This document shows, piece by piece, positions 36,558-64,000 of a stretch of DNA of 64,000 nucleotides. Within the stretch, counting starts at the first letter, position 1. Each line of letters opens with the position of its first letter. The position numbers were made by a program, and so were the translations under genes. Below the pieces are notes generated by a model, which ran no database searches, was not told the origin of the DNA, and worked only from the letters and a program-made list of their open reading frames with translations. This stretch comes from Prorocentrum cordatum. Taxonomy: Eukaryota > Sar > Dinophyceae > Prorocentrales > Prorocentraceae. Location of the stretch: assembly GCA_963575745.1 (NCBI GenBank), contig CAUYUJ010006335.1, positions 1-64,000 of the forward strand, given 5' to 3'.

Positions 36558-36585
36558 GGCTCAAGGCTCAAGGCTCAAGCTCAAG
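36558..36585 (+). other. Tandem spliced-leader relics at the LINE-1 5' end
   Basis: Four tandem copies, each ending CTCAAG (GGCTCAAG once, GCTCAAG twice, CTCAAG once), sit directly before the point where homology with the LINE-2 5' UTR starts (CTGCATTGTGCAG). The known dinoflagellate spliced leader ends GGCTCAAG, and truncated tandem relics are known from retroposed dinoflagellate genes. The inference is repeated cycles of trans-splicing and reverse transcription. The first GGC could also belong to the target hairpin. Confidence 0.75.
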
Positions 36586-37013
36586 CTGCATTGTGCAGAA
36601 AGGAGTCTTTGGTTCCTCATACTGTACACGGTGCTTCAGTGTCTGTTTTGCCTGAGTACCGTACACGTTCATTGATTGTCGGAGTGCGCATTGACTGTTC
36701 AGATTGTCGGAGTACCGTGCGCTTTCATTGAGTGTCGAAGGCCTGTGCACATTCTTTGTGGTAGCCTACGAGTACCGTACACACTCATTCTTTGCTTGAC
36801 TCAGATTCCCGCACGCGTGCTGCAGAGTGTCTTTTGCCTGAGTACCGTACACACTCTTTGGAGGTCGAGTTTGACATCTGTTCAACACTCTTGTGAGGAC
36901 ATCTGTTCGACACGACGACAGATTCTAAGCGTTCGCGTGAGGACATCAATTTCTTGGAACAGTGGGGGTTTCCAGAGGAGCTCAAGTATTCGAACACCGT
37001 CACCTTCGCAGCG
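36586..37013 (+). promoter_or_regulatory. LINE-1 5' UTR
   Basis: About 430 bp between the relics and the ORF1 ATG. The first 85 or so bases align with LINE-2 at 52265 onward (CTGCATTGTGCAG, TGTACACGGTGCTTCAG, TTTTGCCTGAGTACCGTAC). The motif GAGTACCGTRC recurs four times (near 36655, 36712, 36770 and 36840). Such repeats are often promoter or regulatory modules in LINE 5' UTRs, but no function can be proven here. Confidence 0.6.
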
Positions 37014-38090
37014 ATGTCTCAGCAACACCCAGCAGGTGCGCCCTGTTGTAAGAAGAGTAAGGCTGTGGGTGAGGATGAGGATATGATTCAGGCAAGCAGT
37101 GAGGAGGAGGAGCAGTTCGGCGAATTTGATGACGGCAATCCTATGAAGCAACAGTTTGCTATGATGAAGGCTATGCTAGCTAAACAGAACACTCAGAAGA
37201 AAAGAATTTCACGGATTGAGCAGGATGTGAAACGGATCGACCAGCGTGGTGAGAAGAATGAGGCTGACATTGCTGCTATGCAGCAGCAGATCCGCTCGCT
37301 TCAGCAGAAGGGTCCACCCAGTGATGCAGGATCAGGGTCCACGGATGCTTGGAGTAACTATGCGGGCCCTGCGGGCTCCTCTGCTACGGCCACTGCTCCC
37401 AGGTATGGTAATCGTACGCCAATTCGCGAATGGAATCGAGTGCGGGAGGATTTTACACCGACCTTCATCCAACTCACAGGTTGGGCGCGAGGTGGAGTCG
37501 GCAATCTCAAGACTCGTTCATCGGATATGCTCTCCTGGGATCATGCCCTGCCTGTCATTCGTAAATTTGTCCGTGGCACAGGAAAGATGACTGAGGAGCA
37601 TTTCGACATGAGTAGGATCGAGCGGGAGCACAAAAATAAACCATATGGTCTTTATCGTATACGATTCTATGTTATAAGTGGCAAGTTGACGAACGATGAA
37701 ATTTGGGAGATACGCAACTCTTGGGCCGTCGAGCTTGAGAATGACACGCACGACTTGAAGCAAGTCACTCCCATCCTGGCCAACAAGCGTCTCGGCGTAT
37801 CCTGTGAACCAGCACCCTGGAAGCAGCCACATGTTTCTGCCGTGGGTCGTTGTCAAGCTATCTTTGCTACTCTCAGGAGTGGATCCCAGTGGCTGAAGGG
37901 TGAGATGGGTCCTCCTGTCAGCTATGTGTGGGGCTACCCTTCGGCCACGACGCCGAAGACGGATGGAGTATGCATTGCCGTGTTTGATCCTAACTTGGGG
38001 TGGAAGGTTGACGCCGAGCTGCTGCGTAAGGTCGATGACAAGTTGGATTGCGAGGTCTTTCTGGCCAAGCTCAACTTTCGTACCTGGTGA
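37014..38090 (+). CDS. LINE-1 ORF1 protein (putative RNA-binding nucleoprotein)
   Basis: 358 aa from the ATG at 37014 (MSQQHPAG); the frame is open further upstream but without ATG. A basic and acidic N-terminus (CCKKSKAV, EEEEQ) precedes a coiled coil of about residues 45-105 (repeated K/E/Q-rich heptads, RISRIEQDVKRID, AAMQQQIRSLQQ), a Gly/Ser/Ala linker and a folded C-terminal domain. The architecture resembles L1-type ORF1 proteins, which trimerise by a coiled coil and bind element RNA; that role is inferred. The C-terminal domain shares FxQxxGW-like, RIRF and APWKxPxxxAxGR motifs with LINE-2 ORF1. No zinc knuckle was seen. The gene ends at TGA 38088-38090, and ORF2 continues in the same frame with no gap. 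Confidence 0.85.
   Translation: MSQQHPAGAPCCKKSKAVGEDEDMIQASSEEEEQFGEFDDGNPMKQQFAMMKAMLAKQNTQKKRISRIEQDVKRIDQRGEKNEADIAAMQQQIRSLQQKGPPSDAGSGSTDAWSNYAGPAGSSATATAPRYGNRTPIREWNRVREDFTPTFIQLTGWARGGVGNLKTRSSDMLSWDHALPVIRKFVRGTGKMTEEHFDMSRIEREHKNKPYGLYRIRFYVISGKLTNDEIWEIRNSWAVELENDTHDLKQVTPILANKRLGVSCEPAPWKQPHVSAVGRCQAIFATLRSGSQWLKGEMGPPVSYVWGYPSATTPKTDGVCIAVFDPNLGWKVDAELLRKVDDKLDCEVFLAKLNFRTW
38088..38090 (+). promoter_or_regulatory. In-frame TGA between ORF1 and ORF2, candidate readthrough stop
   Basis: The ORF1 stop is TGA followed by AGG, and the same frame is open for the next 4.2 kb as ORF2. The first in-frame ATG of ORF2 (38142) lies after the TYN motif of the endonuclease, so an ATG start would lose an active-site residue. 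LINE-2 has the same layout. Readthrough is the simplest explanation; reinitiation at the GTG codon at 38109 is an alternative. Confidence 0.55.
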
Positions 38091-41000
38091 AGGTGCCATG
38101 GCGCCATCGTGGGCACGTATAACGTGAGGCGCTGTGGCAGCATGAACAGCCACGACATGCTTGCTCAGATCAAGACCTCGAATTCGGAAGTTCTCGCTTT
38201 GCAGGAGTGCCAGTTCCTTGGAATAGGTAGGTGCTCTGAGCATGGTTTCACCTTAACTCTTTCTAATGATGGGAAGGCCGGGGTTCTCTACAAGAGGGTG
38301 TGGAGAGCCTCCATACGTGAATGCATCAGGGGTAATCGTTATGTCATTCTCGTGTTTCAATCGTTGATTGTTGCCAGCTTGTACTTACCACATGCGCCGA
38401 AAAAAGGGGATCACAATATCTTATTCACACAAACATTGCAGTCGTTTCGAAAGGATTTGGATACGCTCCGAGTTAGGTTTCCCAAGGAAGGGTGGGACTT
38501 GTTCATCGGGATGGATGCTAACGTTGAGCTTCTGCCTCACACGGTATTTGGAGATGTTGCTTTGACTGGTTCTGCAGTGCAGGGTGAGAGATTTGAAGAA
38601 GGGGACAATGCAGGAGGAGGTGGACGTGGAGGTTTCCAGCAGGGTAGGAGGAGGATGCAACAATACATGTGTGACGAGCTCTGTGAATGTATGTGGCATT
38701 ATGATTTGGTTTTCTCGAATTCTTTTGGGACCCGTCGTACGACCTGGAAGGCCAGGGAGGAGACGGAGGAGGAGGACAAGGTTCTTGATTACCTGTGTAT
38801 TCCGAGCTCCTGGGAAAGGCCTCAGTGGGAGGTGTCGTGGTTAAGGCCAACACTCAGGGGCTCCGTGGACCCCAGAAAGACCCGCCTGTCGGACCATGCC
38901 CTGCTCACCTTGCTTGTCCCCGAATCGGCCGCTCCGACTCGACGTTGGAGAACGAAGCCACGACAAACGTTCACTCATTGGTGCTGCGACGAAGCCTCGG
39001 AATTGCAAGTTTCGGCTAACCTTGATCGTCGTTTGCATGCTGCAGCTCGTTACCCATCTGGTCTCTGCCCGGATGAATTGGCTCCTGTTATCTTGAATGC
39101 ATGTACACAGGACAAGGAGTCATACACCAATGTCCCAAAGAAAATGCAGATCCCCAAAAAGACAGATCGTCATAAGGAACTTGATGATGAATATCGCCGA
39201 CTGCGTCGTGAAGGAGGGGAGGAGGAGGAGCTCATCAGGGTTAAGAAAGAGAGAAGGAAGGAGATGCGTGCACACACTCGTCGTCGACTCGAATACGATC
39301 ATCGTGACGGGAAGCTCGCTCGGACGGTGGTGGACAAATTGAGTTATGACGATGTGCTCACGGAGGATAGGGAGTTGTGGGAGAAGGCGCTCTATGCTCA
39401 CGGGTTCGCCAAGTACCACTGTGCTGCGCAAGGGATACGTAACGTGGAGTGTATCGAGGAGAGGAGGAGGAGGAGGTTGCAGGACACGAACACAGTGGAC
39501 GTCTCCCCCATTTCCATGTCCGTATTGTTACAGGCACGATCACGCTTAAAGTGTGGTAAGGCGGTGGGTAAGGACGGAGTTTCTCCTTCTATGTTGAAAC
39601 GTATCACGTGGGTAGGTTTGCGTCATATTCTTCGGTTATTCCAAGACCTGTATCTTCAACGGTATCCTACTCCTCGGATTTGGTCTGAGTTGCTTGTGGT
39701 GTTGATGCCGAAAGCTAAAGATATCACTAAGTTGTCTGATACTCGTGCTCTCGTCTTACTTAGCAGCCTAAGCAAATGGTATACTTCATGTTTGGTTGAG
39801 ATTGCTGAAGGTTATCTGAAAAGGGTCCCACAATATCTACATAACTACGGATTTTGCAAGGGAAGGCGCACGCACGAGATCACTGCCATGCTTAAGCATG
39901 CCACCACACACGCTCTGGAGTGGGGGAAAGATGAGACCCTGCACCTCGCGTCATTAGATGTGCAGACTGCCTTTGATAACGTCACGGTTGAGAAGGCCAG
40001 TCGGGCCTTGGATGCCATCCCTGGGTTCCCCAATGACCTTGCGTTGGCGCTACTCGCTCCCAGTATCCTGGACACAGCGGACTTTACCTTTCAGGACTCC
40101 ACGGCGACGGGTATTCCCTGGGATGCATGTGTACGTACTGGTAGTGTGGAGGCCCCCTTCCTGTGGAAGTGTGTGACACTACTGATGTGGGATAGGATTG
40201 TACTGAATTGGGAGGAGGAGAAGTTGGGGTACGATTTGGGGGTGGAGGCTGGTGGGAGGTATCTTACTCATGCGCTCTGGGCCGATAACATTTTGCTTTT
40301 CTCGAAATCAAAGACTGAGCTCACACGTATGGTGGGGGACTTCTCGGCTCAGCTGTATACGCACGGTTTCAGATGGAAAGATTCCTCACTACACTATCTT
40401 GCCTTTGGGGAGGACTCTGAAGGCGCCTCGACGGGGAACCTCGTTGTCCAGGTGAACGATCTCGGTACCCTGTGTCTTCCGCGATGCTCTGAAATGGAGT
40501 GCCTGGGTTGCCTGGTCACGACCAAGACTGACAAACACCATGATGTGGCTTGGAAATTGGCTCGGGGTTGGAAGCGATTTAACCAGTTCCGCAAGTTTTA
40601 TACGAATCGTGCTGTACCCTTCCAGAAGAAAATCAAGCATTATGAATCTAGGTTGCGTAGTTTTGTACTTTTCGGTGTTGAAGGCATGCCAGCGGACCAC
40701 CACACTTTGAAACAGTTGCACACGTGGGAAGGTAAAATATTGTGTTCTATGGTACGCCGCCCGAAACCTGCCGACATGGATTGGAGTATATACTTATGCA
40801 ACTTGTACAAACGTGGGCGGCGTATGCTCCTGGAATTGGGACGGCCGTCTCTTGTGCAGCTATTCTTGTTTCGTCAGTGGCAGTGGGCTCAGGACTGTAC
40901 GTTTACTGTGAAACGCCTGAACCCAACACCCGCACAGATTCCTCCAGGTACTTTTGATTCTTCAGGCAAGCCTGGCCCCAACGTCTTTGCTGCGTGTGAG

Positions 41001-42269
41001 CCACCGCCGGCCAAGAGACAACGTCAGGATGAACCCATGTATGTGCTACCAAGTATTGCGTGCTCGACATCAATGGGATGTCATCCTGACGTGTGTGAGA
41101 CGATGCATGCTGTTGATTCCTTTGAGCTCCCTGGTTCTCAGACACAATTACCCGCGCATCGGCGCAATCTGATTTCCCAGATGCATAAGCGTGCAAAGAC
41201 ATTCCATCCATCTCAGGATTCTCTGTCGCAAAAGCGTTCCTCTGTTGAGTTGCCGTCGCAGGAAATCGCTGCAAACAAGCGGCGACGGGTGGCTCCACCT
41301 CAGCATCGTAGTACAGGGGACTCGCATATGCAGGCTAGAGAATGTATTTTTGCATGGTCGGGGGAGTGGACTGACCGACGGCAGGCCTTCATTGCATCGC
41401 TGCCTTGGAAAGAACGCCCATTAATGACGCGTCGGCATGAGGGGGGGAGACCACTGGCGTTGAGAAACTTCCATTACATTTTCGAGTTGGTATCAGGGAA
41501 GGATTGGTATCACACGTTATCCTTTTCACGTCAGGGATGGAAAGAATTTCTGAAGCGGGCACTGGATGTTACTAACATGGAGGAGGCGTGGGGGTACTGT
41601 TACTTTAAACATGCACAACCTGCGGGATATGCTAGGGAGGAGGAGGAGAGGGAGAAGACGGAGGAGCAGCAAAGGAAGGAGGACGAGAAGATGGAGAAAC
41701 GACTTGCGTACATTAATGAACATGCATCGGAGTGGAATGCGGAGCCTCGGGACTCGATACCGATGGAATTGATTGGGGACTCCGCCACAGGGGTGAATTG
41801 GATTAACGGTCTCTGGGCAACATCCAATATTATCTACAAGCACATTCTTGGCGACATTCAAAATAGGCTGGAGCATATCTCTGTGTTGTATGGTATGAGG
41901 CCTCCGAGTTGGGGCCACAATATGTTCAAGTGGATCTATCGAGAAGGAAACGAAAGAGCTGACAGGCTGACATGGTTGGCCAGAACCAAAAATAGTTACG
42001 TTACGTTCCATACCTCACTTATTGAACATGCGAGTAAAACAAAACTAGACGGCCTCCGTGGATTCTTCGACGGAGGTCGCTCTGTGGAGGGATGTGCTGC
42101 AGGATGGTGTATAGATTTGTGTGTACACGGGACGTGGCAGTTGGTGGCGGAGGAAGCTGTCTCGCTTGATGCCTCTGCTTCTGTCATGTTTTGTGAGATG
42201 ATTGCAGCACAACGGCTCTGTATGGCCGTGGAGCACATTTTGGGTAGCATCTTTCATCCAAGCAGCTGA
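38091..42269 (+). CDS. LINE-1 ORF2 polyprotein: APE endonuclease, reverse transcriptase, permuted RNase H
   Basis: The frame is open from just after the ORF1 TGA to TGA 42267-42269; residues are counted from the GTG at 38109 (1386 aa). The endonuclease has TYN (about 3-5), LQE (E33), SLYLP (Y92), DAN (D136, N138), LDY (D227) and SDH (D262, H263). A charged linker leads to the reverse transcriptase: GKDGVS (about 488), LMPK, LDVQTAFDN (D617), the RTGSVEAP region and WADN (D726, N727) where most families have Y/F-x-D-D. A thumb/connection region with basic patches (AKRQRQ, NKRRRV) follows. The C-terminus holds RNase H motifs in unusual order: GDS (D1224), NERAD (D1285), FDGG (D1321), CEM (E1363). 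It makes and inserts element DNA by target-primed reverse transcription (family knowledge). Confidence 0.9.
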   Translation, partial: RCHGAIVGTYNVRRCGSMNSHDMLAQIKTSNSEVLALQECQFLGIGRCSEHGFTLTLSNDGKAGVLYKRVWRASIRECIRGNRYVILVFQSLIVASLYLPHAPKKGDHNILFTQTLQSFRKDLDTLRVRFPKEGWDLFIGMDANVELLPHTVFGDVALTGSAVQGERFEEGDNAGGGGRGGFQQGRRRMQQYMCDELCECMWHYDLVFSNSFGTRRTTWKAREETEEEDKVLDYLCIPSSWERPQWEVSWLRPTLRGSVDPRKTRLSDHALLTLLVPESAAPTRRWRTKPRQTFTHWCCDEASELQVSANLDRRLHAAARYPSGLCPDELAPVILNACTQDKESYTNVPKKMQIPKKTDRHKELDDEYRRLRREGGEEEELIRVKKERRKEMRAHTRRRLEYDHRDGKLARTVVDKLSYDDVLTEDRELWEKALYAHGFAKYHCAAQGIRNVECIEERRRRRLQDTNTVDVSPISMSVLLQARSRLKCGKAVGKDGVSPSMLKRITWVGLRHILRLFQDLYLQRYPTPRIWSELLVVLMPKAKDITKLSDTRALVLLSSLSKWYTSCLVEIAEGYLKRVPQYLHNYGFCKGRRTHEITAMLKHATTHALEWGKDETLHLASLDVQTAFDNVTVEKASRALDAIPGFPNDLALALLAPSILDTADFTFQDSTATGIPWDACVRTGSVEAPFLWKCVTLLMWDRIVLNWEEEKLGYDLGVEAGGRYLTHALWADNILLFSKSKTELTRMVGDFSAQLYTHGFRWKDSSLHYLAFGEDSEGASTGNLVVQVNDLGTLCLPRCSEMECLGCLVTTKTDKHHDVAWKLARGWKRFNQFRKFYTNRAVPFQKKIKHYESRLRSFVLFGVEGMPADHHTLKQLHTWEGKILCSMVRRPKPADMDWSIYLCNLYKRGRRMLLELGRPSLVQLFLFRQWQWAQDCTFTVKRLNPTPAQIPPGTFDSSGKPGPNVFAACEPPPAKRQRQDEPMYVLPSIACSTSMGCHPDVCETMHAVDSFELPGSQTQLPAHRRNLISQMHKRAKTFHPSQDSLSQKRSSVELPSQEIAANKRRRVAPPQHRSTGDSHMQARECIFAWSGEWTDRRQAFIASLPWKERPLMTRRHEGGRPLALRNFHYIFELVSGKDWYHTLSFSRQGWKEFLKRALDVTNMEEAWGYCYFKHAQPAGYAREEEEREKTEEQQRKEDEKMEKRLAYINEHASEWNAEPRDSIPMELIGDSATGVNWINGLWATSNIIYKHILGDIQNRLEHISVLYGMRPPSWGHNMFKWIYREGNERADRLTWLARTKNSYVTFHTSLIEHASKTKLDGLRGFFDGGRSVEGCAAGWCIDLCVHGTWQLVAEEAVSLDASASVMFCEMIAAQRLCMAVEHILGSIFHPSS

Positions 42270-42490
42270 CTCATTTCATCTTGCTTGGAGCTCTCCAACA
42301 CCTTTACATTTTCACATGTTGTATTGCATCCTTTTCCTTGTTCCTGCATCCTATTCCGTTGCCTATGCCTCAGTGGCTCGGCAGTGTGATGATAAGAGTT
42401 GCCCTCTCCAGCTACCCTGTGCTCCGTTTGGGAGTCTTAGGGCTCAGCTGTCACAGCTGTCCGCGCCCTGACTCAAACTCAAACTCAAAA
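42270..42490 (+). other. LINE-1 3' UTR and tail
   Basis: About 220 bp without coding potential, ending in three ACTCAA repeats plus A residues, directly followed by ACCAGGTTGACGG of the target hairpin. A short 3' repeat instead of a long poly(A) is common in several LINE clades. LINE-2 ends differently (CCGCAAAA-type), so the two do not share a 3' UTR. Confidence 0.7.
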
Positions 42491-42642
42491 ACCAGGTTGA
42501 CGGTTTACCGCCGGCTCCCAGTACCTCGTCGAGCTCTTCGGCATCGATGAGCTAGGGGAATTCCGGCGCGGGGTGGAGCTAGAACCTCGTGGAGCTTTCG
42601 ACATCGATGAGCTAGAGGAATTCCGGCGCGGGGTGGAGCTAG
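42491..42642 (+). repeat. S hairpin remainder and two 60-bp S leader fragments
   Basis: 42491-42522 is the loop and right arm of the hairpin split by LINE-1 (ends GGCTCCCAGT). Two tandem S leader fragments of 60 bp follow (42523-42582 and 42583-42642), each ending GGTGGAGCTAG before the next start. Confidence 0.8.
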
Positions 42643-51946: not shown

Positions 51947-52207
51947 GGTCAGATTTGAAAGATATTTGACCATTCATTTTGAGAAAGCAGATTTTTACGC
52001 CGAGCATTGGCATATACGATTTGTTTCCGGAGCAGCTCAACTCTCTCGAGCCAGTTTTAGTTGACTTGCCGGAACCGACTTCATCTTCACTCCGAAAATC
52101 TTAATTTGATGTTTTCCCAGAAAACTCCCAGAAGCTCTCCACTTCGATCCTGAGCTTTCTTACGGGTGCAAGAAGCTCTACGAGGTTCCCGGCGGTGACC
52201 AGGTTGA
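51947..52207 (+). repeat. Type S unit interrupted by LINE-2
   Basis: An S unit of the same subtype as the ends of 7965-8967 and 8968-9971. It runs through GAAGCTCTACGAGG, the left arm of the type B hairpin and the loop to ACCAGGTTGA, where LINE-2 begins. The rest of the hairpin is at 57637-57657. Confidence 0.85.
52198..52207 (+). repeat. LINE-2 target site duplication, left copy (ACCAGGTTGA)
   Basis: A ten-base direct repeat lying in the loop of the S-unit hairpin. The identical right copy is at 57627-57636. Undisturbed hairpins contain it once, so it is a target site duplication made on insertion. Confidence 0.85.
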
Positions 52208-52264
52208 GCAGAGCTTACCTCCTGCTTGGCTTGGTCTCACCGCTTGGGTCCCCCTCGTCTCGAG
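52208..52264 (+). promoter_or_regulatory. Pyrimidine-rich tract and AG, candidate trans-splice acceptor of LINE-2
   Basis: A tract rich in C and T (CCTCCTGCTTGGCTTGGTC, CCCCCTCGTCTCG) ends in AG immediately before CTGCATTGTGCAG, the first base of homology with LINE-1. In LINE-1 the same position is occupied by spliced-leader relics. This marks the AG at 52263-52264 as the likely acceptor for spliced-leader addition. Confidence 0.65.
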
Positions 52265-52562
52265 CTGCATTGTGCAGTAAGGTGTTCTTCTGTTCCACTT
52301 ACTGTACACGGTGCTTCAGAGTCTTTTTGCCTGAGTACCGTACATCTTTGCACATGTGTCGGCATACTATTCCTTTCTGCTGCGGTATTCTGCATTATCG
52401 AGTGCTCTCCATCGTGCACACACTGTCTGTTCGGTGCTGTCTCATTGCGTCTATTCATTCAGTGCTTCATTCAGTGTTTCATTCAGTGAGCTCACTGTTC
52501 TGCATTCAGTGTTGCATTCAGTGCTTCATTCAGTGTTGCATTCAGTGCTCTCTATTTGCACA
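52265..52562 (+). promoter_or_regulatory. LINE-2 5' UTR with tandem CATTCAGTG repeats
   Basis: The first 85 or so bases match LINE-1. From about 52453 to 52550 there is a tandem array built on CATTCAGTG with alternating GTTTCATT, CTTCATT and GTTGCATT spacers. The reading frame of ORF1 is open through this array, but the first ATG in good agreement with LINE-1 ORF1 size is at 52563. Confidence 0.6.
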
Positions 52563-53621
52563 ATGGCCGACGCTCGGATGTCTGATGCCGAAGCCAATGA
52601 TCGGAAATGGAGGCGTGATTTGGAGATGGCAGAGGAGAGAGCCAAGGAGTTGCAGCAACGTCAGGTGATCCTCAGTCAATCTAGTGATTTTGGTTTCAAG
52701 GTTTTCCTGGAACGGACATTCGACAAAGATGATCGATCAAAACGTGAGAGTGAGGAGAGCCGTCAATTACTTCAGACCCTTCATGAGAAGACGGATAAAA
52801 CGGAGAAGGCAGTCGTTGATCTCCAAAAGCAACAGCATGCTGATTCTGCGCGCATCACGGCTCTTGAGCAGCAGATGAAAAACGGTCATCCTTCCCTCGG
52901 GGGTGCTTCGACTCGCTCGGGTGCCCCATCGGACTTTGCGCCATCCTTCGTAGAAGCATACGGATGGGTGGAGGACAGGGCTTCGGCAGAAACGCGTAAT
53001 CGTACTTCTATCTCTGACAGGAATGCATATCAGGTGGTCACAAATTTGTTAGCCGTGCTGGAAACGAAAGATCCTCTTCTTCGTGCCAAGGTCGACCCCA
53101 TGGGTTCATGTCGTCTGCAGGGTAATCGTGCTTCATACGCGAGTGTTCGGATCAAATTCAATGCGGTTACTGAAAACGATGACCTATGGAGCGCCAAGAA
53201 GATCTGGGAAAATGCTTGGAACGATGCTGCTCAGAAAAATCTTCTGCTGGATCAGATGGCGGGATATGGTGCCAACCTGCCCTCACGAGTAAAGTTCACG
53301 GTTGAGAGCGCACCGTGGAAGACACCACGCCTGCAGGCCATCGGTCGGTTTCACGGCATCTGGGCCAGCGACTCGTGCCTTCGTAACATCAAACTCAAAG
53401 GAACGGCTGGCAGCGGGGCTACACCTTCTGAGATGTGGACCGACCCAGCGGAAGACGGAAATCGAAAACAGTTGGGTGAGTTCGCAGCCGGTGGCCAGTA
53501 CGGTGGTTCGGGTCAGTGGCGTATCATCAAAGAGAACTGGGATGCCTTTGCGTTGTTGCACCGTTTGGCCATCACGTCAGAAACGATGGAGCAGAGGCTT
53601 GCTACCGTCAACCGTCGTTGA
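52563..53621 (+). CDS. LINE-2 ORF1 protein (putative RNA-binding nucleoprotein)
   Basis: 352 aa from the ATG at 52563 (MADARMSDAE); the frame is open about 70 codons upstream through the 5' UTR repeats, which I exclude. An N-terminal charged helix and coiled coil span about residues 15-105 (EERAKELQQRQ, DLQKQQHADSARI), followed by a Ser/Gly linker and a C-terminal domain with FVEAYGW, RIKF and APWKTPRLQAIGR, matching the LINE-1 ORF1 motifs FIQLTGW, RIRF and APWKQPHVSAVGR. Overall identity is low, so the domain has been kept over long divergence. The role in binding element RNA is inferred from the architecture. It ends at TGA 53619-53621, in frame with ORF2. Confidence 0.85.
   Translation: MADARMSDAEANDRKWRRDLEMAEERAKELQQRQVILSQSSDFGFKVFLERTFDKDDRSKRESEESRQLLQTLHEKTDKTEKAVVDLQKQQHADSARITALEQQMKNGHPSLGGASTRSGAPSDFAPSFVEAYGWVEDRASAETRNRTSISDRNAYQVVTNLLAVLETKDPLLRAKVDPMGSCRLQGNRASYASVRIKFNAVTENDDLWSAKKIWENAWNDAAQKNLLLDQMAGYGANLPSRVKFTVESAPWKTPRLQAIGRFHGIWASDSCLRNIKLKGTAGSGATPSEMWTDPAEDGNRKQLGEFAAGGQYGGSGQWRIIKENWDAFALLHRLAITSETMEQRLATVNRR
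53619..53621 (+). promoter_or_regulatory. In-frame TGA between LINE-2 ORF1 and ORF2, candidate readthrough stop
   Basis: TGA followed by CAA. The downstream frame is open at once and encodes the endonuclease without any ATG until 54165, after the catalytic Glu (53763), the SLYLP motif and the DAN motif (54063). As in LINE-1, the residues GAI appear a few codons after the stop. Independent ATG initiation of an active endonuclease is therefore not possible here. Confidence 0.6.
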
Positions 53622-55109
53622 CAAACGTCGCGGGGCTCGGGTGCTATCTCAGTCACCTGTGCCTCGCAGAACATCCAGAAGGCGGGTAAGGCCGCCAATC
53701 ATCAGTATAACGTTCTGCGTCTTCTCTCTCACGATGTCCATTGGGATCTGCTGGGCTTGCAGGAATGTGAGAATGTCGACTTTAATTCAGACTGGTTTGC
53801 TAAGTTGGGGGTTAGTGCGCAGCTATCTTCTTGTCGCAAGGCAGGCATATTGTACCGTGGGGGAACGGCAATACGTGAGCAGTCTAGTGGTGACAGATGG
53901 GTGGCTGTCCTGTTCAATCGGGTTATCTTCGTCTCACTCTACCTTCCCGACAGCTCTGTGGGGGAGGCTCTCAACATCACGGATGTTTGTCTTCGTTCTA
54001 ATTCATTTCTCAGGCGGTACTGGGAAGGTTTGCATGGTTCTCTCAAGTTGGTTGTTGCTGCAGATGCGAATGTGGAAGTCAGACCACATCTCACGGACAT
54101 CGGAGGCGCCGCCTTGACGGGCCCAGGTCTGCGAGGCGCTGATGTTTGTCATGGGGATGGTGGGATGGAGAGGGAAAGGAGGAGGTATTCGTTACTACGT
54201 ATCAAGGTGGAGGACTGGATGATGGAGGAGAGCTTGATTGCCAGCAACACGTTCAGGGAGAGAGAGATCACGTGGTACGGATATCGGACAGGGGCACGAG
54301 AGGCGGGGAAGGTCTTGGACTATGTGCTAGTATCTCGTGGTACCGTGTTTGCGCCCGCCTCGGTGTCCTGGCCTCGCGAGTTGGGCAGTACTCGCAGGTT
54401 TAGTGACCACGCGTTGGTGCAAACGGAGTTGCAGCTTGATAGACCAGTCGTCGCGCCCAGATACGTTGCACGGGCTGTGCGGTGCCTATCCAGATGGATG
54501 CCGCTGACCTGGCACGACGGCTGCTCGTTTCAGACACGTCTCGACTCGTCAATCGACGAGAACCTCAGCCTTGAGGAGATTGAGAAACGTTGTCGTCGTG
54601 AGGCGTCTGCTACTTCGACTGCCCCCTTCTCGTCTATGCTCCCTCCCCGTCGGCACCCTGAACTTATTCGATTGCAGGAGGAAGTGAAGAGGTGGGAGGG
54701 GGGCAAGACGTCGGAGGAGTTCAAGAAGTTCAGGAGGAGGAGAGACCAGGAGAAGAGGAAGTTCGACAGGAGATGGATGGCTTGGAGGTTCTCGGAAGGG
54801 CGGAGGAGGACACAGAAGCACACGATCGAGAGCGTCCACGGGTCCGTGGATCGGGTTGATTGGCACGCCTCCCTCTTGGATCACACGCAGAGCTACGCAG
54901 ATGTGGGCGAGCGTGAGCGTGCCCATCTCTCTCTGGCCTCGCTGCGTGCACGCGTGGCTGCTGGATCCCAGGATGTTCCCCGTCTGCCTTGTCTCAGCGG
55001 TGTTTCGAGCTCGTTCTTGTCTTCATACGGCAAAGGCGTCAGGGCCAGATGGGATCTCCGCGGAGGTGCTCAAAGAACTCCCGTATCGGACCGTTCGTAT
55101 TTTTGCTGA
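53622..55109 (+). pseudogene. LINE-2 ORF2, 5' part: APE-type endonuclease and linker (before frameshift)
   Basis: Same frame as ORF1. Endonuclease motifs: LQE (Glu at 53763), VSLYLP (about 53937), DAN (54063), VLDYV (Asp at 54318) and SDH (Asp at 54405). They match the metal-binding and catalytic positions of exonuclease-endonuclease-phosphatase family LINE endonucleases, which nick target DNA. A basic and acidic helical linker follows. Homology to LINE-1 and LINE-3 ends near 54995 (PCLS), after which the frame carries unrelated residues to a stop at 55109; the homologous protein resumes one base downstream. The gap-free alignment with LINE-3 across the join (RARVAAG... versus RARAALH...) points to a single extra base. 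Confidence 0.8.
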
Positions 55110-57636
55110 TCGTTTTGATGAGATATTTCGTGGTCTTTGTGCCGTGCCTGGATCTTGGCGTCAGACCTTCATTGCCCTGATGCCGAAAAAGCTGAAAGTG
55201 CTCACCCATCTCTCGGAGGCTACTAGGAGTATTGCCGTGGAGAGTGCTATCAAGAAGTGGTACTCGTCGTCGGTCCTTGTCGTCCTCGAGCCCTACTTTA
55301 CCAAGGTGTTGCCACATATCTCGCTCTTCGGGTTCGCGGCCGAGCGCTGCTGTGGGGAGATCTCGGGGGCCCTCAAATGTGCGGCCCAACATGCGGCAGT
55401 CTGGGGAAAGGATCGGTCTCTGCTGATCGCCAGTGTGGACGTTAAACAAGCTTTCCAGAATATGACGGTTCAGAAGATCACACTTGCGTTCGAGAGACTC
55501 GGTATTCCTCCGCATCGCCAGCTTGCTCTATTGGAACCCCTGGCGGACGAGGTCTCCACGGTGCTCTTCGAGGGTCTCGGGGTCCCTGAGGTCAAAGTAG
55601 ACAAGCACGTTAGGACGGGAGGTAACGAGAGCCCAGCATGTTGGAACGCTGTAGTGGCAGCCATGTGGGCTGATATTGTTCAGGACTGGGACAGGGGAGG
55701 CCTAGGCTACGAGTGTATCAACCCCAACCAGACAACAGGGACCGCCGTGGTAAACCATCTCATCTTTGCTGACAATGTGTACATCATTGGCTCAGGCCTG
55801 AATCCCAAGGCTTTTCAACAACAGTTGAATGACTTTACTCTTGCCTTGCATCAATGGAAGTTTGTTTGGAAGTTGGATAGCCTACAGTTTGCTGCTATAG
55901 GTTGCTCCCCTGGGAAATTCTTTACCAGTATCCATCGCTCTAATATGCCTGGGGATATCGGCCTCGATGGGGCTGATGAGTACGTCAGTGTCGAGCTGCA
56001 GCAGGTCCCCGTCCTCAACGTACTGGGGAACGACATCGCGGTTTCTTTTCGCGAGCCGCATGTTGATGTTGACCGCCGTCTCAACGCTGCTCGCAAGGCA
56101 TTCTTCGGCCATATCCAATACTTTCGATCCCGTGCGGTGCATTGGCATCTGAAGTTCAAACGTTATCAGTCCATCGTGCAATCTACCCTGCTCTTCGGCT
56201 CGGAAGGGCTGACGTGGGAAAAGGACTCGATTCACAAAATCCACGTCTTTGAGGGCACATGTTTGTTGAGGATGTGTCATACATCGAAACCCGCCAGTGT
56301 ATCATGGGACATATGGCGCCCTGCTCGTTTGCATGTTGTTCGAAAGCTATTTCACGATCATGGGTTTCAGAGTTCGGTTCAACGTGTATTGCATCGTTCA
56401 TGGTTGCTGGCAAAAGACGTTGCGGAGTATCATGCGACTAACTGGGATGCTGCTTATGCGAATCGGGAAGATTGCAAACGTCGTCGGCTGGCTCTCCCCA
56501 TTGCTCCTCCTAATGGTGCCCGTGCCTGGAGGGACGCCAGAAGGATGCTGCTGTGCTCGTGTCCATCGTGGGAGGGTGCTCGTTCAGACTTCAGTGAGGT
56601 CCTTCGACAGAAGGGATCGTGGAAGGAGGCTAGTGCTCTGAAACGTATTCGTGTCGGAGCTGGTGCATCAGGAGAAAGACCCTGGAGTTACATGGCATAT
56701 ATCCTATTTGGGGCCTCTTGGTGGAAGGACGGTGAGTTTTCCTGGAAAGCGTTCCTCGACAAGATGCCTGATTACCTGAAACACTGTGGCCATGAGAAAG
56801 CGTTTGAGTATTTCGTGTATTCTGGAAAGGGGACCGACTCCGTGGTGGAAAAGATGTCTTGGGATGAGTTGATGTCTCAGGAGGTGTCTGGAGCGGAGGC
56901 GGAAAAGTTAGCAAAACGGTTAGCCATCCTGAATGAAAGGGCGACGGTCTGGGATGTTGTTTCGGATGGGCTCCCTGTGGAGCTCTGCGGAGATAGTCTT
57001 CTTAGTATAAATTGGGTCCGTGGGAAGTGGAGGGTGGGAAATAACGTGTATCAAAAGAGAGTCGATAAGCTGGTGGATGAGATTGCGTGGCTGGAAAATC
57101 GATACCATCTCAGATCCAGATTCCTTGGTCGTGACTTCCTCAAACATGAATTCAGAGAGAACAACCAGAGGGCGGATGCCCTCACACATTGTGCGCGGGA
57201 AGGCCGCGAGTGTTACACTATGAGGCCTGTTCCACCCGATCTTTTAGAGTATCATGAGCTTGTTGCCCTCCGCGGTCGTTTCGACGGCGGAGTGGATGCG
57301 TCTGGTTGTGGTATTGGTTTCTTTCTCGAGGCCGCCTTTCTCCCCCATCCTGAACATTGCTCCAAGCGCCTGCGGCATTCCGCTGCCCCCGACTCGCCTC
57401 AGCCTGCTGCCTCCTGTGACGGTCTCGTTTGGAGAGATGTTGCGGAGGCGGCCCTTCTCTTGCCTAGAGATAGTACAGTCACTGATGCCGAACTGACGGC
57501 GCTGGAGCGCCTCATTGGGGCGGCCGAGTGCGTGCTGAGAGCTCGCAGAGAGCTCGAGGCGCCCTGCTGGGCGTTTGGCTCGGGCAGGCTTCGACGGAGC
57601 CTTCACTGCCCGCAAAACCGCAAAAAACCAGGTTGA
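54994..57636 (+). pseudogene. LINE-2 ORF2, 3' part: reverse transcriptase and permuted RNase H (after frameshift)
   Basis: The second frame of ORF2, resuming at SAVFRARS. Reverse transcriptase motifs: ASGPDGIS, LMPKK, SVDVKQAF (Asp at 55438), RTGGNESP and FADN (Asp 55771, Asn 55774). RNase H motifs follow in permuted order: CGDS (Asp 56992), NNQRAD (Asp 57175), RFDGG (Asp 57283) and DAELTAL (Glu 57490). The spacing of the first three is identical to LINE-1 (61 and 36 residues); the last gap is 69 residues against 42 because of a Pro/His/Ser-rich insertion. The stop TGA 57634-57636 lies inside the right target site duplication, so the element uses a stop codon supplied by its landing site. Confidence 0.85.
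57627..57636 (+). repeat. LINE-2 target site duplication, right copy (ACCAGGTTGA)
   Basis: Identical to 52198-52207. It is followed by CGGTTGACCGCCGGCGCCAGT-type hairpin sequence, which completes the S-unit hairpin started at 52172. It also contains the ORF2 stop codon. Confidence 0.85.
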
Positions 57637-58828
57637 CGGTTGACCGCCGGCGCCAGTAATTCCGGGGCGCTGGAGAGCTCGTTGGCAAGAAAAATCTGGA
57701 CGGACCTTTGCGTGACTTTTGGTCGGTTGAAAATTTGGTTCTCGAAATTCCTCAATTCGTTTGAGCTCTAGTATTTTTTCCCGTGGTTTTCGATCTTATT
57801 CCCGCTCGACATCTTGATCTCAGCTCGATCGGGTACCTTTTACTGCCAAAAAGCACACTGGCGGGATCGGCCGTTTCGAGTCATCTTGACACGCAATGAC
57901 GGTTTTCTGAACATAACTCGAGCTATAGGACAGCTACAGCGCTGGTAAGCACAGCTAATCGATTCAGAATGATCAGGCGCGTTCGCCTGTTGAATCTAGA
58001 GGTCTGAACTCGGTCTACTAGCCGAGCTAGGTCCGCAAACCTATTCGTATTATTCGAGTCATCTTGACAGACGCTCTGGATTTTCTGTACTTAACTCGAG
58101 CTATAGGACCGCTACAGAGCTGATACTTACAGAAACCGATTCAGAGTCATCAGTCGGATTTATTTGTTGAATCCAGAGCTCTGAAGTGGGTCTGCTGCCC
58201 GATCTAGAATCGCGAAACTATTTGTATTGTTCGAGTCATCTTGAGAAGTCTCTCGGTTTTCTGCACTCAACTCGGGCTGGGGCGGGCTACAGTGCTGGTG
58301 GTCACAGACATCGATTTGAAGACATCAGGCGCGTCCGCCTGTAAAATGCAGAGCTGGGAACTTGGCCTGCTGCCTGAACTAGGTTAGCGAAAATATTATA
58401 TGGTTCGAGTCATCCTGAGAGGTGCCGTCGGTTTTCTGCACTTAACTCGGGCTGTAGGGAGGCTGCAGGGCTAGTAATCGCAGGAGTCGATTCGCAGCCA
58501 CCAGACGCGTCCGCCTGTCGCATTCAGAGGTCTGAACTCGGTTCGATACTCGAGCTGGGTTGCCAAACTATTCGTTTTGTTAGAGTCATCTTGAGAGGTG
58601 CTGTCGATTTACGCACGTAACTCGGGCTGTAGGAGAGCTACAGAGTTCGCAAAGAAGACAATCGAGGAGCATCGGGGGCGTTCGGGTGTTGCATCACGAG
58701 GTTTGAAATCGCTAGGCTGAAACACTATTCGTTCTCTGTATTTTTTCCATATTATATATATATTGTCAGGAAGCTCTACGAGTCCCCCGGCGGTAACAAA
58801 GGTTGACGGTTCACCGCCGGCGCCCAGT
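57637..58828 (+). repeat. S hairpin remainder and type I unit
   Basis: 57637-57657 completes the hairpin split by LINE-2. A type I unit follows (start AATTCCGGGG at 57658) with four monomers and the hairpin at 58769-58828; here the left arm has GGTAA but the right arm has TTCACC, so the stem is mismatched by one pair. Confidence 0.8.
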
Positions 58829-63164: not shown

Positions 63165-63478
63165 TCCGGCGCGGGGTGGAGCTAGTTGGTCGATCTGGCC
63201 AGAAGAAGATGTGATAACTTTGGGTCGGTTTTGCTAAGATTTGAAAGATATTTGACAATTCATTTTAAGAAAGCAGATTTTTCGCACCTGTAGATGACTG
63301 TGAGAGCCTCTGCGTCTTAATATGAGCTCTGCAGGCACACGTTCACTATCAAAACACTTGGCGAAACCAACTTCACGTCGACATGAAAAATATCAATATT
63401 GATTTTCCCGAGAAATGCTTCCAGAAGCTCTCCCTTCCGATTCTGAACAATATCATCCGTGCAAGGAGCTCTACGAGG
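63165..63478 (+). repeat. Type S unit interrupted by LINE-3
   Basis: An S unit truncated at TCCGGCGCGGGG and running to GGAGCTCTACGAGGT, the start of the terminal hairpin arm. LINE-3 coding sequence begins there. The other half of the hairpin is beyond the window. Confidence 0.8.
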
Positions 63479-64000
63479 TGGAGGGTATCGTGACGGAGGA
63501 CAGGGAGGCGTGGGAGGAGGAGGTCAAGGCACATGCGGCACGTACTATGACATGTAGCACGGAGCGTGAACGTAACATATTACTTGTACGCAATCTTCGT
63601 GCTCGCGCTGCTCTCCATAGCCACGCAGAGGCTCTCACACTCACGCCATCTAGTGTTTATCGTGCACGCGCACATCTTCGTAGTGGCAAGGCTTGCGGGC
63701 CTGATGGTGTCAGTATTGAACTATTGAAAGCATTGCCGTGGCGCTGTGTTCGCATAATCATTGCAGTATTTCAGGATATTTTCTCAGGGGCAAGACGTAC
63801 CCCCAGCTCTTGGTGTGATGTGTACTTGAATTTGATGCCAAAGATGTCGGAGATGAGCTCTCTTGAGGATACTCGTAATCTCATTGTGTCCAACACCCTG
63901 GGGGAATGGTACCTCACATCAGTGACGCTGTTGATCGAGGAGAGGATTGCCCTTTGGAAAGGTAAGCTCGGGTTGTACGGCTTCGCAGGAGGTAGGCACA
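63478..64000 (+). mobile_element. LINE-3: 5'-truncated LINE of the same family, cut by the window end
   Basis: The element starts directly in ORF2 sequence at the end of the endonuclease-RT linker, without 5' UTR, ORF1 or endonuclease. Such 5' truncation is typical of incomplete target-primed reverse transcription. It continues past the end of the window. It is the third LINE of the window in the same part of an S-unit hairpin. Confidence 0.85.
63478..64000 (+). CDS. LINE-3 ORF2 fragment: reverse transcriptase N-terminal part
   Basis: Open in frame from the junction to the window end (174 codons), with no stop. It begins VEGIVTEDREAWEEE, matching LINE-1 DDVLTEDRELWEK, and continues through RARAHLRSGKACGPDGVS (RT motif 1 region, cf. 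GKAVGKDGVS and AKASGPDGIS), a motif ending LNLMPKM, and TRNLIVSNTLGEWY (cf. TRALVLLSSLSKWY), then GLYGFAGGRH. Catalytic motifs A and C lie beyond the window. The frame happens to be open into the upstream repeat (KELYE), but no start codon is evident, so it is a truncated, probably untranslated copy. Confidence 0.8.
   Translation, partial: MEGIVTEDREAWEEEVKAHAARTMTCSTERERNILLVRNLRARAALHSHAEALTLTPSSVYRARAHLRSGKACGPDGVSIELLKALPWRCVRIIIAVFQDIFSGARRTPSSWCDVYLNLMPKMSEMSSLEDTRNLIVSNTLGEWYLTSVTLLIEERIALWKGKLGLYGFAGGRH

Follow-up and report, generated by a model that had tools for sequence, protein, structure and literature searches.

The DNA analysed here is a stretch of 64,000 nucleotides from the dinoflagellate Prorocentrum cordatum (contig CAUYUJ010006335.1, positions 1 to 64,000; hereafter the window). 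Of main interest in it is a long interspersed nuclear element (LINE), E1, whose second open reading frame (ORF2) occupies 38109..42269 of the plus strand, the strand on which all coding features given below lie. The frame is open over 1386 amino acids and is laid out as an apparent APE-type endonuclease region, a reverse transcriptase (RT) and, at the C-terminus, a putative permuted RNase H. It is very probable that E1 ORF2 ends in a complete RNase HI domain, archaeal in type and circularly permuted. The original prediction had placed the new ends of the domain between the helix that bears the equivalent of E48 in E. coli RNase HI and the strand that bears D70, and this is supported by the homology of the first half, by the register obtained on restoring the ordinary order of the halves and by a structural model of the homologue P0013.

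The first half of the permuted domain (41757..41984) corresponds to beta4, alphaB, alphaD, beta5 and alphaE of archaeal-type RNase HI, as assigned by hhalign and by positions 65-119 of the Pfam family RVT_3. It carries Asp1224 of a GDS motif (41778-41780), the equivalent of D70, and Asp1285 of NERAD (41961-41963), the equivalent of D134; seven residues before the latter stands an Arg (41940..41942), aligned to R114 and equivalent to the active-site Arg of archaeal-type enzymes. Between alphaE, once the C-terminal element, and beta1, once the N-terminal one, runs a linker of 24 residues (41985..42056). The second half (42057..42266) would supply beta1, beta2, beta3 and alphaA, to judge from the alignment of its FDGG stretch to archaeal-type positions 7-26 and from the P0013 model, with Asp1321 of FDGG (42069-42071) as the D10 equivalent and Glu1363 of CEM (42195-42197) as that of E48. 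These four acidic residues lie where the original prediction had put them, exact to the base, and the spacings it gave, 61 residues from D1224 to D1285 and 42 from D1321 to E1363, are equally exact.

The relationship of the first half is clear. Against an archaeal-type reference profile built from 59 RNase HI sequences out of 80 loci, hhalign aligned it to template positions 66-127 with a probability of 96.6 and a P value of 6.9e-10, pairing D1224 with D71 and D1285 with D121; the Arg located seven positions ahead of D1285 fell on R114, which is conserved in that profile. When eight family members were aligned with 46 archaeal-type pieces, D104, S105, R160, E161, N163 and D167 (P0013 numbering) were invariant. 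The first half is thus shown by sequence comparison to be homologous to archaeal-type RNase HI from beta4 to alphaE, the C-terminal half of that enzyme. According to PMC5348765, the active site has an Arg in archaeal-type RNases H and a His in fungal and metazoan ones. By sequence, the terminal domain of E1 is of the Arg type and closest to archaeal RNase HI: it has Arg rather than His, and its D-E-D-D acids are in register after reordering. Pfam is in partial agreement: RVT_3 recognises only the first half of native E1, at positions 65-119 of 123 and with an E value of 0.016, which is below the family cut-off.

The same arrangement recurs in relatives that have diverged widely. A second LINE in the window, E2, is ~30% identical to E1 both in the RT and in the C-terminal domain, and 33% identical to the first row of the family alignment (A3). 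Its first half (56971..57198) bears the GDS Asp (56992-56994), the Arg (57154-57156) and the RAD Asp (57175-57177), and its second half (57271..57549), in which the stretch between the second and third strand is longer, bears the FDGG Asp (57283-57285) and the DAEL Glu (57490-57492). The motif order of E2 is GDS, RADAL, RFDGG, TDAEL, the same as in E1. P0013, a protein of 277 residues found by profile search (37% identity over 94% of the query; 44% to the first A3 row), has the same order again, as GDS, ERAD, FDGG, QAEL. The C-terminal 201 residues of E1 ORF2 further match a Prorocentrum cordatum protein with 99% identity over 99% of their length. Since UniRef already names P0004 and P0007, two P. 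cordatum entries closely related to E1, 'RNase H type-1 domain-containing protein', the RNase H similarity as such was known, and the new part is the order of the halves, on which that name is silent.

Alignment A3 comprises 10 rows; it does not include P0008, a gene model in which the second half is largely missing. The D1224 column is D in all nine rows that bear a letter there (P0007 is cut short), the D1285 and D1321 columns are D in 10 of 10 rows each, the E1363 column is E in nine of the 10 (P0010 has V), and an Arg stands seven residues ahead of the second Asp in every row. Seven of the 10 rows are of the E1 type, and most rows other than E2 and P0013 share 82-99% identity with the first and add little; the weight of the conservation therefore rests on three lineages. 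The four-acid pattern is more than chance, and both the identity and the order of the acids, shared by three divergent lineages, are shown. It could still be that the permuted domain folds as RNase H and no longer cuts, having been retained in the ORF2 protein (ORF2p) for RNA:DNA binding or as a structural element, an explanation compatible with the permutation. The loss of the Glu in P0010 would fit such a domain, but conservation of four acids and the Arg across lineages ~30-44% identical would be unusual for a dead enzyme, and we regard this as unlikely.

The family was also compared after the normal order of the halves had been restored. In the reordered family profile, D9, E47, D71 and D121 of the archaeal-type template, together with Arg114, are met in exact register; the alignment covers almost the whole domain, and the acids are in register with D10, E48, D70 and D134 of the E. 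coli type as well. When the columns of the second half were shuffled, conserved letters fell on both D9 and E47 in only one of 300 cases. Against 64 E. coli-type sequences, the native order matched 64-144 only, with a probability of 17, whereas after reordering with the cut at 75-100 the match ran from 8 or 9 to 137-145 with a probability of 71-74. The score rose from 25.5 to 34.4, a value reached by four of 200 shuffles of the second half and by none of 100 of the first, and the bulk of the gain sits in alphaA to beta4.

Comparable behaviour was seen with RVT_3. Reordering of E1 extended the match from 65-119 to 14-119 and improved the E value from 0.016 to 0.0015 (another cut of E1 gave 0.0019 over 14-97), and no RVT_3 match was obtained when the first half of E1 was reversed. 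For P0011, the native E value of 0.011 became 0.0032 over 14-119 on reordering; with a shuffled second half, all eight matches started at 62-65 and none extended, the best reaching 17.3 bits against 17.8 for the reordered sequence. Three of five reordered members matched RVT_3, at best with an E value of 1.5e-4, while reordered E2 and P0013 gave no RVT_3 match. Among solved structures, the reordered profile found 3aly and 2ehg (Sulfolobus tokodaii ST0753) only at E values of 0.39-0.42.

Taken by sequence alone, the second half can be read as beta1 to alphaA of RNase HI only weakly, and several results weigh against that assignment. With HMMER, single second-half sequences scored -3.0 to 0.9 bits, values reached by 5 to 122 of 400 shuffles, so that nothing usable was obtained there. 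Reordering raised the archaeal-type score from 56.3 to 57.1 only, which 24 of 300 shuffles also reached; the second half alone did no better than chance against the E. coli-type profile (76 to 118 of 150 shuffles reached its score); and the native order was not drawn across the junction of a doubled E. coli-type profile. These points would suit an ORF2 in which only the first half derives from RNase H, as an archaeal-type C-terminal fragment, with an unrelated C-terminal module behind it in which FDGG and Glu occur by chance. Against this stand the conservation, across three lineages, of the DGG Asp (10 of 10 rows) and the Glu (nine of 10), and the profile-profile alignment, in which the FDGG stretch falls on archaeal-type positions 6-26 or 7-26. 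In that comparison the score of the second half alone was reached in four of 300 column shuffles (the match beating the other 296) and, depending on the master sequence, in 0 of 150 (P0013), 2 of 150 (E1) and 0 of 150 (E2), which is to say that it beats 148 to 150 of 150. In addition, the P0013 model has three long strands and a helix in this region, although the alignment behind the model held family rows only for the second half. An unrelated module is accordingly judged improbable, and a complete permuted domain remains the preferred reading.

The AlphaFold2 model of P0013 has a mean predicted local distance difference test (pLDDT) score of 80.3 and a predicted template modelling (pTM) score of 0.66; in its second half, six of nine ten-residue blocks have a pLDDT of at least 90, the lowest being at 59. 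Its elements are a strand at 99-103, helices at 106-113 and 121-141, a strand at 155-157, a helix at 160-174, strands at 194-206, 209-220 and 232-244, and a helix at 250-273, and their order, beta-alpha-beta-alpha-beta-beta-beta-alpha, is a cyclic rotation of that of RNase H. The acids sit on the expected elements: D104 comes directly behind the first strand, helix 160-174 bears D167, strand 194-206 bears D202 and helix 250-273 bears E254. From these elements the four may be expected to converge in space. Structure prediction, which the original prediction had suggested, gave for this homologue one confident model that shows the rotated order; the model of E1's own domain was poor. In place of the archaeal-type order beta1-beta2-beta3-alphaA-beta4-alpha-beta5-alphaE, beta4 to alphaE come first and beta1 to alphaA follow, and the domain is therefore filed as a permuted variant and not as an ordinary archaeal-type RNase HI. 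Highly improbable, finally, are an artefact of the assembly or gene model, which the same order in E2, ~15 kb away and ~30% identical, and in records from other sources makes very unlikely, and a pairing of half-domains between two ORF2 molecules, since, even though sequence cannot separate intra- from inter-molecular closure and the 24-residue linker might permit a domain swap, the single-chain model is confident.

In non-long terminal repeat (non-LTR) retrotransposition, the RNA is reverse-transcribed at a target site that has been nicked, and the product is an RNA:cDNA hybrid, the RNA of which can be removed by an RNase H on the same polyprotein as the RT. It is in this setting that the permuted domain would act. 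Its chain would run beta4-alphaB-alphaD-beta5-alphaE, the 24-residue linker, then beta1-beta2-beta3-alphaA, and the fold most likely closes as usual, within one chain, bringing D1224, D1285, D1321 and E1363 together with the archaeal-type Arg into one two-metal site. Once target-primed reverse transcription is over, such a site would cut the RNA strand of the resulting RNA:cDNA hybrid, and removal of the RNA would clear the template for second-strand synthesis. Both the nuclease activity and its role in the retrotransposition cycle are putative. The permutation itself presumably arose by duplication and loss, or by rearrangement. Tandem duplication followed by loss is a standard route to circular permutation; a remnant of a tandem duplication was looked for and was not found.

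That two very divergent relatives of E1 have the same swap suggests that the rearrangement is old, has been retained and, apparently, has not been described before. On balance, it seems to us probable that a whole lineage of site-specific dinoflagellate LINEs regularly ends in a naturally permuted, catalytically competent RNase H of archaeal type, the permutation having arisen once before E1, E2 and P0013 split and been kept since, and that it is the first of its kind in any retrotransposon. Archaeal-type RNase HI (RVT_3, PF13456; Sulfolobus tokodaii ST0753, PDB 3aly and 2ehg) shares with E1 the four acids, the Arg seven residues before the last Asp and the GDS and RE.N..AD motifs; in E1 the halves are swapped, with new ends between alphaA and beta4 and the linker joining alphaE to beta1. 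Archaeal-type RNases H are also found in other eukaryotic retrotransposons, namely plant Ta11 L1 and oomycete elements (PMC5348765), but the accessible part of that article mentions no permutation, and the host of E1 is a dinoflagellate.

Permutation of the RNase H fold as such is not unheard of: the CIRPIN preprint (2025, PMC12667903) relates two RNase H-like domains in AlphaFold DB clusters by circular permutation, although in the portion available the proteins are unnamed and neither 'retrotranspos' nor 'reverse transcriptase' occurs. The available text of a review of the RNase H-like superfamily (PMC3985635) has no word starting 'permut', and in that of PMC5408684 'circularly permuted' refers to a scaffold. 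The original prediction knew of no LINE with this order, and literature searches, with most subscription journals outside their coverage, likewise show no retrotransposon with a permuted RNase H. Within the literature searched, a lineage of retrotransposons that ends in such a domain thus appears undescribed.

Few nucleic-acid folds are as widespread as that of RNase H. If the reading of a permuted domain is true, this fold accepts new ends in nature and has kept them in divergent mobile elements, and it is explained why Pfam sees half a domain, below cut-off, in these proteins. It would also be worthwhile to search other elements seemingly without RNase H using rotated profiles, and protein engineers would be given a natural template with new termini.

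As for the rest of E1, ORF1 (36897..38090) was taken as a stop-to-stop frame, and its only Pfam matches were far under the cut-offs. The RT of ORF2 comprises residues 543-755 (Pfam RVT_1, E value 2.2e-9). A Pfam scan of E1 ORF2 showed no endonuclease at E values up to 1, and an endonuclease region is suggested by a 27% alignment of E1 residues 4-402 with E2. The nearest RT among solved structures is that of LINE-1 ORF2p (E value 3.6e-5), which does not by itself establish membership of the L1 clade, and the earlier label 'LINE-1' for E1 is unproven. Both proteins have an endonuclease and then an RT in ORF2; however, RT motif C is ADD in LINE-1 and ADN in E1, and the insertions in the window share one target site. 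The human LINE-1 protein is not known to carry an RNase H. In full, motif C is WADN for E1 (40278-40292), FADN for E2 (55765-55779) and FADD for LINE-1, and from these sequences the second catalytic Asp of the RT appears to be replaced by Asn in two divergent LINEs.

E2 has a similar layout, with an ORF1 (52335..53621, stop-to-stop frame) followed by an ORF2 whose 5' part (53622..55109) holds the endonuclease (Exo_endo_phos, E value 9.5e-5, 22.7 bits, below the cut-off of 24.5) and whose 3' part (54688..57636), in another frame, holds the RT and the permuted RNase H; the frame running from 53622 is broken between about 54803 and 54991. P0012 is a close copy of E2, with an end identical to that of E2 except for one residue near the end. 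In both elements a single TGA parts ORF1 from ORF2 in the same frame (38088-38090 in E1, 53619-53621 in E2). The first in-frame ATG of E1 ORF2 lies only downstream of the apparent start of the endonuclease region, and readthrough is therefore possible. Features of a non-LTR retrotransposon are present, with endonuclease and RT in one ORF2 (RVT_1; the endonuclease in E2 below cut-off) and a target-site duplication around E2 only.

Three LINEs were found in the window, namely E1 (about 36561-42514), E2 (about 52206-57650) and a truncated E3 (about 63471-64000), and all three interrupt the same short target sequence, which points to site-specific insertion. E1 and E2 end in ...AAAACCA or ...AAAAACCA directly before GGTTGACGGTTKACCGCCGG, a motif that occurs in 57 copies in the window (up to 3 mismatches) against 0 expected and forms the right arm of a hairpin-like unit. 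A 10-base duplication (ACCAGGTTGA) surrounds E2; the left flanks of E3 and E1 come from the same hairpin-like unit as GGTTGACGGTTKACCGCCGG, and no duplication was found for either. At 57631-57636 the stop TGA of E2 ORF2 falls inside the target sequence (CCAGGTTGA), and this ORF2 appears to be without a 3' untranslated region of its own. Repeat units, themselves containing sub-repeats of ~175-178 bases, are arrayed over much of the window, 1-64000. The units close with the target hairpin; after GGCGCC(C)AGT, the point of the repeat where the following unit starts varies, so that the array looks as if 5'-truncated copies had been joined end to end.
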